Assembly (NCBI RefSeq): GCF_004365655.1
Contig: NZ_SOEO01000001.1
Span: 186,001 to 250,000 of the forward strand
Direction: 5' to 3'
DNA length: 64,000 nucleotides
Origin: Epilithonimonas xixisoli
GTDB taxonomy: Bacteria > Bacteroidota > Bacteroidia > Flavobacteriales > Weeksellaceae
Shown: piece after piece, positions 1,322 through 35,055 of the stretch
Numbering within the stretch: position 1 is the first letter of the stretch
How the letters are laid out: each line of letters begins with the position of its first letter
Program-made: the position numbers and the translations under genes
The notes under the pieces: model-generated
Told to the model about the DNA's origin: nothing
Database searches by the model: none
The model's input: the letters and a program-made list of their open reading frames with translations, nothing else

Positions 1322-1348
1322 AACTGTCAATTTAAAACGTTGAATCAC

Positions 1349-1472
1349 TCGCAACCCGACTTGAACGGAGCTCTTTTTTGTTATTGCGATTATTGAAATG
1401 TTCTTTTGATGGTAAAATGTTCTTCGCAATGACAAAAAAAGCGGGAGTGGAAGGCGGAATAGTTGCCCAAAT
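1349..1472 (-). repeat. Dispersed structured repeat, copy 1
   Basis: An intergenic element lying 2 nt beyond the stop of the DUF1569-like gene. Read on the plus strand it begins GCAACCCGACTTGAACGG and ends GGCGGAATAGTTGCCCAA. Inside, TTTTTTGTTATTGCGA (from 1354) can pair with TCGCAATGACAAAAAAA (ending about 1441), giving a long stem. The same end motifs occur at 5803-5922, 30897-30996 and 34928-35043. The strand given is that of the flanking genes, which would transcribe it as RNA. Confidence 0.75.
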
Positions 1473-3923: not shown

Positions 3924-5702
3924 ATGCAACAGAATAACGGACTAGATAAAAGCCAGCTGATTAGCTTCGGTATTTTTTCTATGATTCTTATCGGTTTTAT
4001 GTTTTATTTCCAAAACAAAAACGCACAGGAGCAACAAGAACAATTGGCAATAGATGCCAAAAAAACGGAACTTGTCACCAAGGCCAAACCCCTCGCTACA
4101 AACTTAAATGCAACTGCAGTTACACCAACTTCTGTTCAGAAAGTGAAACTTCACAATGATGAGCTGGATTTGGAATTTTCCAGCGTTGGCGGACAATTAA
4201 GCTCTGTAAAACTGAACAAGTTTCAGGCGTTTGGAGGAAAACCACTTTATTTGTTTAATAACAACAATGCGAGCTACGGTTTCCAGTTCAAAGACAAATC
4301 CGGAAAAGTTTTCAATACCAAAGATTTGGTTTTCGCACCACAAGTTGCAGGAAATGTTGTGACTTTGAGTTCTCAAATCGGAACGGCGACGATTCAATTT
4401 ATTTATACACTTAAAGCAAAATATACGGTAGATTTCCAAGTTAAAACACAAGGTTTGGCAACATTGGTAAACGATGGTAAAGCCAATTTTGTTTGGGATT
4501 ACAACGTAAGAGGTGCAGAAAAAGGACGTTCTCAGGAGGAGACTCATACAGAGTTTTCTTACGCATTCAACAATTATAAAGATTACGATTACGACGCTCG
4601 TACCGATATGGATGAGCCAGATGAAACCCTTAACTGGATTGGCGTGAAGCAACAGTTTTTCTCTGCAGTAATTGAAGCTAAGAATGGATTCACAAAATCA
4701 AAAGGTTATCAGGAACCAATCGAGGAAGGTGAGTTTTTGAAGAAATTCAATTTTGACGGTCAAGTTAATTTAGCTGGAAACGAGCTGAATCAAGATTTCA
4801 CTTGGTATTTTATGCCATTGGATATGGATTTGCTTAAATCGTTTGATAAAAACTTCGACGAGATTTTGCCACTAGGTTGGTCATTCATTGGCTCATTGAA
4901 CCGCCACGTATTTATGCCGATGTACACCTTGATTTCAGGTTGGGGCATCGCAGCAGGTTGGGCCATTTTCTGGATGACGATTATTATCAAACTAATCTTG
5001 TCTCCGGTAATGTTCAAACAGCACAAACTAAGTGCGATGATGAAAGTGATTCGTCCGGAAATCGATGAGGTAAATGCCAAATTCAAGGATGCTGACCCGA
5101 TGAAAAAACAGCAGGAAACAATGGCGGTTTACAGAAAAGCTGGCGTGAATCAGATGGCAGGATGTTTACCAGCCTTGGTTCAGATTCCGCTCTTCTATGC
5201 ACTTTTCCGATTCTTCCCGAATATGCTAGACCTCCGAGGCAAGAGCTTCTGGTTCGCACCAGATTTGACGGCTTATGATGATGTGATTAAATTCGGATTT
5301 AATATTCCATTGTTGGGAGAGCATTTGAGTATTTTAGCATTAGCTTGTACGATTGTAATCTTGATTTACACTGTGATGACTTCCGGAAACATCCAGCAAC
5401 CACAACAGGAAGGAATGCCGAATATGAAAGTGTTGATGTACATTTTCCCAATCACATTCCTGTTCTTCTTGAACAGTTCTGCATCAGGATTGTCTTGGTA
5501 TTATTTCGTGTCCAATGCAATTAACATTGTAATTATTTTGGTCATCAAATATTTCATCCTCGATGAGAAAAAAATCCACGCTCAGATTCAGGAAAACAAA
5601 CAGAAGGAACCGAAAAAAGAAGGTAAGTTCCAAAAACGAATGAGAGAGATGATGGAGCAAGCGCAAGAGCAACAGAAAGCACAGCAAAACAAAAAGAAAT
5701 AA
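3924..5702 (+). CDS. yidC: Membrane protein insertase YidC
   Basis: YidC inserts and folds inner-membrane proteins, alone or with SecYEG. The product is 592 residues. An N-terminal transmembrane helix (about residues 12-30) is followed by a large periplasmic beta domain and then the conserved insertase core: the helix around WGIAAGWAIFWMTIIIKLIL, KQHKLSAMMKVIRPE, and the motif QMAGCLPALVQIPLFYALF, with three further membrane helices. The C-terminal tail is long, Lys/Gln-rich and charged, as expected for a ribosome-interacting tail in this phylum. pyrG lies upstream, as in several flavobacterial genomes. A terminator follows directly. Confidence 0.98.
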   Translation: MQQNNGLDKSQLISFGIFSMILIGFMFYFQNKNAQEQQEQLAIDAKKTELVTKAKPLATNLNATAVTPTSVQKVKLHNDELDLEFSSVGGQLSSVKLNKFQAFGGKPLYLFNNNNASYGFQFKDKSGKVFNTKDLVFAPQVAGNVVTLSSQIGTATIQFIYTLKAKYTVDFQVKTQGLATLVNDGKANFVWDYNVRGAEKGRSQEETHTEFSYAFNNYKDYDYDARTDMDEPDETLNWIGVKQQFFSAVIEAKNGFTKSKGYQEPIEEGEFLKKFNFDGQVNLAGNELNQDFTWYFMPLDMDLLKSFDKNFDEILPLGWSFIGSLNRHVFMPMYTLISGWGIAAGWAIFWMTIIIKLILSPVMFKQHKLSAMMKVIRPEIDEVNAKFKDADPMKKQQETMAVYRKAGVNQMAGCLPALVQIPLFYALFRFFPNMLDLRGKSFWFAPDLTAYDDVIKFGFNIPLLGEHLSILALACTIVILIYTVMTSGNIQQPQQEGMPNMKVLMYIFPITFLFFLNSSASGLSWYYFVSNAINIVIILVIKYFILDEKKIHAQIQENKQKEPKKEGKFQKRMREMMEQAQEQQKAQQNKKK

Positions 5703-5734: not shown

Positions 5735-5802
5735 ATTTCTCAACCCCTTCAGAGTTTCACATTCTCAATATCATTTATCAGCTATCGATTATCAATTATA
5801 AT

Positions 5803-5922
5803 TAGGAGCTTAATCCTGCTGTCCACTATATCTTTTTTGTTTTTCACAACGTTCGTTAAACCAAACAACGTGAGCCACATAAAAACAAAAAAGGATGCCG
5901 TTCCCATCAGGGCTAGGGATTT
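5803..5922 (+). repeat. Dispersed structured repeat, copy 2
   Basis: On the strand of the flanking genes it reads TTAGGAGCTTAATCCTGCTG at its start and ATCAGGGCTAGGGATTTT at its end. AAAAACAAAAAAGGAT (near 5880-5895) pairs with ATATCTTTTTTGTTTTT (near 5827-5843), forming a roughly 15-bp stem whose loop contains a smaller ACGTT/AACGT stem. It lies about 70 bp after the yidC terminator. Confidence 0.8.
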
Positions 5923-5947: not shown

Positions 5948-5986
5948 AACTCCTTCAGGGGTTTCAAACTCTGAAGGAGTTTTTAG
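5948..5986 (+). terminator. Terminator-like hairpin of the CTTCAGA/TCTGAAG type
   Basis: AACTCCTTCAG (5948-5958) pairs with CTGAAGGAGTT (5971-5981) and is followed by T residues. No gene ends directly before it, so it may back up the yidC terminator or belong to the element upstream. The same hairpin sequence recurs at 28190-28227 and, in part, at 31007-31033 and 56448-56484. Confidence 0.5.
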
Positions 5987-6034
5987 ATAAAAATAAAAAT
6001 CCCGAAATTTGCAAACAATCTTAAACCTAAAACC

Positions 6035-10989: not shown

Positions 10990-12102
10990 TTAGTTCACTA
11001 AATCACAAACCATTTCCCCAATCTTCGGCGCCAGCGCAACACCCATTCCGGAAAGTCTCACGGCACAAAATTGTCTCTCAGAAATTTGTTTTACAATCGG
11101 TGTTTTCTCACTTCCCATCGCCATAATTCCTGACCAACGCATTGCAATTTTGAAATCTTGATTTGGTAAAATCACTTCTTTTAAAAATTGTTCCAAATGA
11201 TTTTGTAGAAATTCTGTCGTTTCAAAATTGGTTGTTTTTTCGGTTTCGAAATCTTGATTTCTTGCACCTCCAAGCAGAATTTGGTTTCCGAGATTTCTGA
11301 AATAATAGAAGCCTTCATCGTAATGAAAAGTACCTTTCAGTTTCAAATTTTCAATCGGTTCTGTTAAAATAATTTGTCCTCTTGCAGGAATTATTTCTTC
11401 GGATTCAAGGAATTTTGAACTGAAAGCGTTTGTACAAAATATAACTTTTTCAGATTTGAGAATTAGATTTTTATTAATCTTAATTTCAACTTCATTTTCC
11501 AATTCTGAAACAGATTCCACTTCTGTTCCGCAGAGAAATTCCACTTTTAGTTCGTGACATTTTTCTACGAGTTTCATTAATAATTTTCCCGAATGCAAAC
11601 TTCCTTCACAAAGATTCTCAACCAAAAATTCTGATTTTCCCAACCCAAATTCTTTGATTTTTTCATTAACGATTTTGAAAGTATTTTCAGTTTTTGTAAT
11701 CGGAAAAAGATGTTGATCCACTTCATCTAACTTTTCTAAAGCAAATTCATCGTTCAAAATTTCATAACCGTCACAAAGGTCAAAATCAATTTCATCATTA
11801 GCAAAATAATTCTGAATCTTCTGCAAACCTTCGAATCTCATTTTGACCAAATCCAACGTTTTCTCCCAACCCATTTTCTCGGAATCAGAAATAATCTCCG
11901 TCAAACTTCCGAAGCAAGCAAAACCCGCATTTCGAGTTGAAGCGCCCATCGGAATCGGATTTCTTTCAACAATTAAAACTGATTTTTCAGGAAACTTTTC
12001 TTTGATAGAAATCGCTGTCCAAAGTCCTGTAAATCCAGAACCGATAATGATAATTTCTCTTTTTCTGTAAAAAGTTTCGAGTTCCCAAATGCTTGGATTC
12101 AT
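10990..12102 (-). CDS. FAD-dependent amino-acid oxidase-like flavoprotein (DAO family)
   Basis: A 370-residue oxidoreductase of the glycine/D-amino-acid oxidase (DAO) superfamily. The Rossmann FAD-binding motif is IIIGSGFTGLWTAISIKEKFP at residues about 18-38, with the acidic VLIVERNPIPMGASTRNAGF that follows in this family. The C-terminal FAD-contacting segment is RLSGMGVALAPKIGEMVCDL. There is no signal peptide, so it is cytoplasmic. Possible activities include sarcosine-, glycine- or other secondary-amine oxidation; the sequence alone does not decide. It is a single-gene unit, convergent with the DMT transporter gene. Confidence 0.88.
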   Translation of the reverse strand: MNPSIWELETFYRKREIIIIGSGFTGLWTAISIKEKFPEKSVLIVERNPIPMGASTRNAGFACFGSLTEIISDSEKMGWEKTLDLVKMRFEGLQKIQNYFANDEIDFDLCDGYEILNDEFALEKLDEVDQHLFPITKTENTFKIVNEKIKEFGLGKSEFLVENLCEGSLHSGKLLMKLVEKCHELKVEFLCGTEVESVSELENEVEIKINKNLILKSEKVIFCTNAFSSKFLESEEIIPARGQIILTEPIENLKLKGTFHYDEGFYYFRNLGNQILLGGARNQDFETEKTTNFETTEFLQNHLEQFLKEVILPNQDFKIAMRWSGIMAMGSEKTPIVKQISERQFCAVRLSGMGVALAPKIGEMVCDLVN

Positions 12103-30896: not shown

Positions 30897-30996
30897 AAAA
30901 CCCCTAGCCCCGATAGTAGCGGTTACCCCACAGCAAGCAATAGGATAAGCGTTGGCGCGAGGAGTAATAGCGGATAGCGGGAAATAGCTCCTAAAT
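30897..30996 (-). repeat. Dispersed structured repeat, copy 3
   Basis: On the plus strand it begins CCCCTAGCCCCGATAGTAGC and ends TAGCGGATAGCGGGAAATAG, followed by CTCCTAAAT. The interior is GC-rich and differs from the other copies (CAGCAAGCAATAGG...GTTGGCGCG), but the stem edges GTTACC and GGAGTAA still pair. It lies just downstream of the ahcY terminator. Same family as 1349-1472, 5803-5922 and 34928-35043. Confidence 0.78.
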
Positions 30997-34891: not shown

Positions 34892-34927
34892 AATTTCTGT
34901 TTTAGTAATCAATTGTAATTTATGTTG

Positions 34928-35043
34928 AAACCCGCAGCCCGACTTGAGCGGAAATCCTTTTTTGCTTGCACTCGAGTTCTATTTAAACTGAAATGTTCTG
35001 CAAAAAAGATTGGGAGCGGAAGGCGGATTAAGCTGCCCAAATA
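34928..35043 (-). repeat. Dispersed structured repeat, copy 4
   Basis: On the plus strand it begins AAACCCGCAGCCCGACTTGA, continues GCGGAAATCC, and ends GGCGGATTAAGCTGCCCAA. ATCCTTTTTTGC pairs with GCAAAAAAGAT. It closely matches copy 1 in its end sequences (CCCGACTTGA, GGGAG-GGAAGGCGGA). It starts 12 bp beyond the SDR stop codon on the transcribed strand. Confidence 0.8.
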
Positions 35044-35055
35044 AATATTAATATT

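Follow-up and report, generated by a model that had tools for sequence, protein, structure and literature searches.

Flavo-1 repeats and a sister class in Epilithonimonas xixisoli: candidate fork-sensitive DNA hairpins with exchanged occupants at orthologous sites

Four structured repeats lie between genes in a 64,000-nucleotide stretch of the Epilithonimonas xixisoli genome (RefSeq assembly GCF_004365655.1, contig NZ_SOEO01000001.1, positions 186,001 to 250,000; hereafter the window), and raise the question of whether such elements act as RNA or persist and spread as DNA. An earlier note, made from the letters of the window, took them for four related copies, always 3′ of a gene and in one orientation, and proposed a functional RNA read with the upstream gene, possibly the published Flavo-1 motif. 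Our analysis narrowly favors a different reading, in which Flavo-1 and a sister class (class C) form a dispersed, non-coding and exchangeable DNA hairpin, sensitive to the replication fork and folding as a single strand, comparable to REP/BIME repeats or MITEs.

The four copies were compared with the Flavo-1 model of Rfam release 15 (RF01705; gathering cut-off 42 bits) and with two covariance models made from copies in the same genome, R2 from class C and R3 from class A (Table 1). All four sites are matched by R3, the weakest with E = 1.6e-8, and the next R3 match in the window has E = 0.87, which bears out the description of four related structured copies; R2 recovers three of the four. The Flavo-1 cut-off is passed by copies 2 and 3 and failed by copies 1 and 4: copy 1 has no Rfam Flavo-1 match at E ≤ 1, and copy 4 matches under the cut-off at a permissive threshold. 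The suggested identity with Flavo-1 is therefore right for two copies, and reaches the other two through related covariance models. Because R3 matches copies 1 and 4 at the scores in Table 1, classes A and C form one superfamily, in which class C is a sister subfamily either missed by Rfam or scored slightly under its cut-off. Copies 2 and 3 share arms, strand and occurrence in Bacteroidetes with RF01705, whereas class C, which has an outer helix (P1) that covaries and a position that swaps between A.G and G.A, falls below or outside that model.

Table 1. Positions, strands and model matches of the four window copies, and the arms by which the classes are recognized.
Feature	Position in window	Strand	Class or arms	Matches or source
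Copy 1	1346..1471	+	Class C	R2 1338-1476, 78.8 bits, E 4.7e-20; R3 1346-1471(+), 41.4 bits
Copy 2	5800..5921	-	Class A	Rfam Flavo-1 5808-5918(-), 69.4 bits; R3 5800-5921(-), 91.6 bits
Copy 3	30899..30996	+	Class A arms	Rfam Flavo-1 30902-30988(+), 44.3 bits; R3 30899-30996(+), 73.5 bits
Copy 4	34921..35046	+	Class C	R2 139.8 bits; R3 34929-35041(+), 56.4 bits; Rfam Flavo-1 34932-35033(+), 40.7 bits
Class A			CCATAGCCCCGAT...GCGGGATTAAGCTCC	Read from own-genome matches
Class A′ (variant of A)			CCCTGAT...AGCAGGTTCCCGGCTCC	Read from own-genome matches
Class B			CCTCAACATAGCCC...GGGTTGGAAT...TTGCTCC	Read from own-genome matches
Class A arms with CACAGC internal stem				Example: copy 3
Class C			GCAGCCCGACTTGAG...GGCGGATTAAGCTGCCC	Copies 1 and 4
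Class D			GGGAT...AGCCCGACCCGAG	Small class

The stem of A/T runs that the note saw as common to all copies is found in three of them (copies 1, 2 and 4); the internal stem of copy 3 differs and is of the CACAGC type (ACCCCACAGC...GCGCGAGGAGT). P1 pairs GCAAC (1351-1355) with GTTGC (1462-1466) in copy 1 and GCAGC (34934-34938) with GCTGC (35032-35036) in copy 4. The copy 1 stem carries purine mismatches, and a second inverted repeat, TTATTGCGA...TCGCAATGA, lengthens its loop. All four copies occupy tandem intergenes in one common orientation relative to the genes: copy 2 is antisense to a + strand reading frame (3924-5702), and the genes on either side of copies 3 and 4 are on the - strand. 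A terminator-like repeat, CCCCTTCAGAGTTT...AAACTCTGAAGGGG, lies near copy 2 (window ~5745-5760 and 5950-5990) and also next to several elements in other parts of the genome.

The window copies belong to a large family. In the E. xixisoli genome, at least 110 Flavo-1 matches were found among the best 150 of 968 candidates, the number scored. Copies are estimated at about 170 per genome, since R3 has 22 matches (E<0.001) in the window and evenly spaced stretches of 380 kb, 444 kb together; the 110 are the top-scoring share of these copies. The best 150 candidates in each of three relatives yielded at least 106 (G022), 123 (G015) and 68 (G004) matches. Among the matches listed, class C occurs by exact pattern in named Epilithonimonas and Chryseobacterium genomes, one class C copy of G015 has 78-96% matches at no fewer than about 100 places across four relatives, and copy 4 at full length, loop included, is found at 85-95% identity elsewhere in at least 17 genomes of the genus. 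Arms are almost never solitary (paired in 134/138, 138/142 and 26/27 cases, with overlapping loci counted repeatedly). A larger autonomous insertion sequence or intron with a gene between the arms was rejected, as none of classes A, C and D has paired arms 190-4000 nt apart in 2.34 Mb of partly overlapping sequence. Carriage by phages or plasmids was also set aside: two class patterns have no exact match in viral contigs, and copy 4 has no blastn match in plasmid and phage collections. Other repeats (CTTCGTCGAACCACTTCGTTAGGTTTG; CTTCGACAAGCTCAGGATAAACT) sit within the internal-loop arms of class C copies at L053 and L056 (G017, G010), L046 and L049.

Three parts make up an element: a leader, ~30-35 nt long and weakly conserved; an imperfect hairpin, ~65-120 nt, whose loop is hypervariable; and a ~19-nt tail. 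Relative to the motif, information content exceeds background from about -35 and returns to it at about +19. Covariation was measured on structures derived from the same sequences that were tested. In 25 class C sequences, 99.0% of 596 cells are paired, five pairs have changed on both sides, and there are 23 double-change cells against 5.1 in shuffles; in 30 class A sequences the double-change cells number 37 against 13.0, and none of 500 shuffles reached the observed count in either class. The number of class A pairs with two-sided change shows no excess in the same 30 sequences (4 versus 3.3), and further pair types, one of the five covariation measures used, show none in class A or C. A larger collection of 137 class A and 129 class C copies, gathered by patterns that restrict some positions to two letters and with some mismatch types thereby hidden, has 1942 of 1967 cells in Watson-Crick pairs, with 16 G.T, 4 A.C and 5 purine-purine cells. 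Class A stem position N17, free on both pattern sides, is AT in 51, TA in 47, GC in 37 and CG in 2 copies, with mismatches in 0 of 137. The P1 helix of class C is exact in 77 of 83 cases across the variants GCAGC:GCTGC, GCGCC:GGCGC, GCAAC:GTTGC and GCGTC:GACGC, and one non-canonical position of the class C stem, where the pattern admits purines only, is A.G in 97, G.A in 31 and G.G in 1 of 129.

One possible explanation for this strong compensatory evolution is, as Rfam and Weinberg et al. 2010 suppose, a structured regulatory or small RNA encoded on the Rfam strand, selected at its slots and with variants spread by gene conversion. The excess of G.T over A.C on that strand (16:4, p 0.012, the copies being non-independent) would also fit. 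On the complement, which is the mRNA-sense strand in most tandem copies, pyrimidine mismatches stand where the Rfam strand has purine-purine pairs. Since the mismatches are purine-purine on the Rfam strand only, and G.T there exceeds A.C, the Rfam strand is likely the folding strand; it is antisense to the genes on either side, and the note had read its complement. We compared folding of 267 copies under DNA and RNA parameters on both strands, as the share of consensus pairs recovered. For class C, recovery was 0.90 (DNA, Rfam strand), 0.69 (RNA, Rfam strand), 0.67 (DNA, complement) and 0.79 (RNA, complement), and for class A 0.57, 0.41, 0.20 and 0.43 in the same order. That RNA parameters recover fewer consensus pairs than DNA parameters on the Rfam strand weighs against an RNA; against a DNA reading, the complement folds equally well or better than the Rfam strand under RNA parameters. 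Recovery as modeled here leans towards DNA over RNA, short of proof, and thermodynamic z-scores of single window copies (-2.7 to +1.7, either strand) are not decisive.

The lack of a promoter signal in the leaders also counts against an RNA. The -7 box of Bacteroidetes promoters is TAnnTTTG, and this motif is not enriched in leaders over upstream controls (class A 10/138 versus 11/138; class C 6/129 versus 7/129), nor is promoter-like enrichment seen with a relaxed TTG-N16-24-TA..TTG pattern (class C 7/129 versus 4; class A 2/138 versus 4). The motif TGACAAA is enriched (class A 40/138 versus 5/138 upstream; class C 31/129 versus 2). The family is entered in Rfam as an sRNA gene, and the table of Weinberg et al. 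2010 (PMC2864571) judges Flavo-1 a probable RNA that is probably neither cis-regulatory nor a switch; mobile DNA is not considered in the accessible parts of that paper. In the accessible text of a Flavobacterium psychrophilum transcriptome paper, Flavo-1 matches occur in sense and antisense alike, many of them away from transcribed regions, and no clear function is given, while a review (PMC9029176), as far as its text is accessible, counts Flavo-1 among the most abundant sRNA families and states no function. No description of Flavo-1 as a mobile DNA element was found among the papers listed in searches of the openly accessible literature. Some 170 scattered copies with hypervariable loops also sit poorly with an RNA, which moreover leaves unexplained a fork effect separate from gene direction; we consider this explanation rather unlikely, even with the retention at orthologous sites described below in its favor.

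The orientation of the copies bears on the role proposed at mRNA ends. Genes were called by a crude longest-ORF rule, and orientation was counted for the copies with flanking DNA, 111 in E. xixisoli, 98 of 123 in G015 and 68 of 106 in G022. Read in the orientation of the Rfam strand, the neighbors of the 111 copies are '--' in 51, '++' in 21, '-+' in 21, '+-' in 17 and '?-' in 1. Among the 72 tandem intergenes, the Rfam strand is thus antisense in 51 (p 5e-4); the corresponding figures are 41 of 60 for G015 and 28 of 43 for G022, so that the orientation described as constant is uniform in the window and a bias genome-wide. Placement of 275 copies in tandem, divergent and convergent intergenes (175/59/41) tracks intergenic DNA length (171.6/57.6/45.7 expected, p 0.75), and 3′ ends are therefore not preferred as such, contrary to the claim that copies always follow a gene. 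A 3′-end element read with the upstream gene, whether a terminator, a processing signal or an mRNA-stability signal, would fit the orientation of all four window copies and of the 51 tandem copies, 40 of which are nearer the upstream stop than the downstream start, against 9 of the 21 reversed ones. It is nevertheless improbable in our judgment, given the 21 reversed tandem copies, the 59 copies between divergent genes, the pyrimidine mismatches of the mRNA-sense strand and an orientation that tracks the fork separately from the gene. The antisense folded strand and the use of divergent intergenes as length predicts tell equally against a small RNA released from mRNA ends. The note had named random orientation together with a lack of compensatory changes as what would count against its reading; neither was found, since orientation is non-random and compensatory changes are abundant.

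For the replication fork, the origin of three single-contig genomes was located without reference to the element, at the midpoint between rRNA operons that point outward (approximately in G004 and G015, for which rounded genome lengths were used). Of 297 copies, 201 have the Rfam strand directed against the fork (G004 44/68, G015 82/123, G022 75/106), the three genomes being non-independent through shared copies. Fork and gene direction each add to the orientation bias separately: in a logistic fit (n=166, G015 and G022), the likelihood-ratio p is 5e-6 for the fork given gene direction and 9e-4 for the gene given the fork. In the same two genomes, 50 copies run against the fork and 8 with it in leading-strand tandem intergenes. 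Lagging-strand tandem intergenes alone (26 against, 19 with; p 0.37) and convergent or divergent intergenes alone (39 of 62 against, 23 with; p 0.056) are non-significant. By class, the ratio of copies against and with the fork is 49:19 for A and 44:15 for C, and the bias is absent in the small class D (7:10); copies without an ortholog (5:2) are too few to tell insertion bias from loss.

Presence, absence and exchange of copies at orthologous sites support the mobility, though not necessarily the RNA, in the note's third option of a mobile RNA-based element. Most loci were chosen around elements, which biases overall sharing counts upwards; comparisons into a contiguous G003 stretch and into the E. 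xixisoli sample are largely free of this. In the G003 stretch, with both flanks aligned, 15 of 16 E. xixisoli copies, 13 of 14 G015 copies (one inverted) and 4 of 7 G022 copies are shared. Into the E. xixisoli sample, shared, absent and unclear copies number 4, 1 and 2 for G003, 2, 3 and 4 for G015, and 3, 3 and 3 for G022. The slot of copy 3 is filled in five of the six relatives aligned there and empty in G009; that of copy 4 is filled in G022, G017, G010 and G019 and has no element in G016 (by eye, nor in G005 and G007). Sites stay occupied between species despite decay of the left flank to median identities of 0.61-0.67, against 0.59 at random, in the five pairings other than the close G015-G003. 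High retention could reflect a selected function instead of mobility, and retention despite this decay is the best argument for a benefit at the slot, or for constant refilling.

What occupies a retained slot often differs. Pair switches were counted in 96 of 134 orthologous pairs, after dropping 38 whose arms were unreadable by the patterns: 61 pair positions show a two-sided Watson-Crick switch and 14 a one-sided one, with 19 and 0 respectively at N17. In 102 of the 134 pairs, which share genomes and are non-independent, a paralog is nearer than the ortholog in both genomes in 69 and in one genome in 11, and the ortholog is nearest in 22. Internal stem type differs in 12 of these 102, and in 20 an element below 0.70 identity adjoins a flank above 0.80, random cross-genome elements being 0.66 identical. 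The 22 pairs with the ortholog nearest, and a median identity of 0.91 between G000 and G015 elements, count against the hairpin reading. Inverted occupants were seen at three slots, one of them with only its left flank clearly aligned. At one inverted slot, the insertion points of G015 and G003 coincide to within a few bases, and no element is present in G022; in that G015/G003 pair, 92-97% identity is seen in 19 of 23 aligned pieces. Two-sided switches, nearer paralogs and inverted occupants fit re-filled or converted slots better than stepwise change in place. A clear target-site duplication was absent from eight filled/empty alignments, most of them unclean because whole intergenes differ; one has a possible ACTAACTAA repeat in a repetitive site. 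At L234 (G015:C1 near 3763225), G015 and G003 differ in the small genes ahead of a shared Flavo-1 slot, and in G003 a second right end comes after the copy, as though the element had served in recombination.

A single-stranded DNA hairpin, the reading that we narrowly favor, could bring together the many copies per genome, the covarying structure, the orientation bias and the kept sites with exchanged, empty and a few inverted occupants. Opening of the duplex at replication forks would be the main occasion for the Rfam strand to fold as single-stranded DNA. The purine-purine internal loops of that strand may be the mark recognized by a putative single-strand DNA recombinase or transposase, or by a host repair activity. 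Such an enzyme would insert and replace copies, the hairpin being active in ectopic replacement. The fork bias could then stem from fork-coupled insertion, or from loss of copies with the folding strand on the lagging-strand template, and the additional gene bias from selection against the structured strand in mRNA. More speculative, and in our view possible but doubtful, is that these elements represent a new class of mobile single-stranded DNA hairpin, oriented to the fork and independent of Y1 transposases, which spreads and replaces itself at fixed intergenic slots, sometimes inverted, through a two-fold-like, purine-mismatch stem read by a putative enzyme of Flavobacteriia. If the DNA reading is true, the sRNA annotation of Flavo-1 misleads in many genomes; compensatory changes alone are no proof of RNA, as a DNA hairpin can show them; and Flavobacteriia possess an undescribed means to move or convert short hairpins. 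Thanks to the fork and gene biases, the choice between DNA and RNA can be tested directly in cultured strains.

Among known systems, Flavo-1 shares with REP/BIME repeats and their TnpA_REP enzymes (PMC6006769, PMC3733652, as far as accessible) many short, intergenic, imperfect hairpins without coding capacity and a logic of single-stranded DNA, but it is longer, with a leader, a tail and hypervariable loops. With the IS200/IS605 single-strand transposons, coupled to the lagging strand as the accessible text of PMC6006769 describes them, it shares orientation relative to the fork and subterminal structured ends but has no transposase that we could find, and since its folding strand runs opposite to fork direction, the simple IS608 scheme does not fit directly. 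That Flavo-1 is itself a REP-type repeat, moved as single-stranded DNA by a Y1 transposase (TnpA_REP/RAYT), would suit its mismatched intergenic hairpin, copy number and fork-related orientation, the Y1 matches in 37 of 59 genomes, E. xixisoli included, and the 'atypical secondary structures' with copies elsewhere that flank the Bacteroidetes TnpA_REP subclass 2.6 in the accessible part of PMC6006769. We give this very little credence, because no Flavo-1 (E ≤ 0.1) occurs in 98 kb around the strongest Y1 locus per genome (30 loci, two from Flavo-1-free genomes), no cognate Y1 gene flanked by Flavo-1 was seen among the loci examined, and G005 and G017 are rich in Flavo-1 (66/66 scored candidates match in each) with 0 Y1 matches at E ≤ 0.001. 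E. xixisoli has a TnpA_REP-like gene of 183 aa (L452:1252-1803(-), C1 near 1184000) with the motif YIHQNP, which fits subclass 2.6 as described in the accessible text of PMC6006769. This gene is flanked by a different repeat of its own, GCACGAGCT.GAAGCTCGCGCCAGCG, and the sole R3 match near it (16 bits) falls inside a reading frame.

Two further comparisons concern the ends of the element. An integron attC site can be dismissed for classes A and C, whose consensus ends (CCCATAGCCC...GGGATTAAGCTCC and GCAGCCCGAC...GCGGATAAAGCTGCCC) on inspection lack the R′ and R″ core boxes, GTTRRRY and RYYYAAC; the ends of class B (CCTCAAC...GTTGGAAT), which is not in the window, partly resemble these boxes. 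MITEs of DDE transposases are short, non-coding, dispersed and present or absent at orthologous sites, with terminal inverted repeats and target duplication. Flavo-1 is alike in the former respects but has no clear terminal inverted repeats or target duplication and exchanges its occupants at fixed slots; by eye, ends of the form TTTGGA...TCC(T)AAA are confined to some class A copies. Another repeat, palindromic, MITE-like and 153 bp long, GAGCCTGTTTAAAAATGA ... ATTTAAACAGCCTC, lies at L336 (~11686-11838) in G003, about 130 bp from a shared Flavo-1 copy, and also at L287; it is absent from the corresponding site in G015 (L230).
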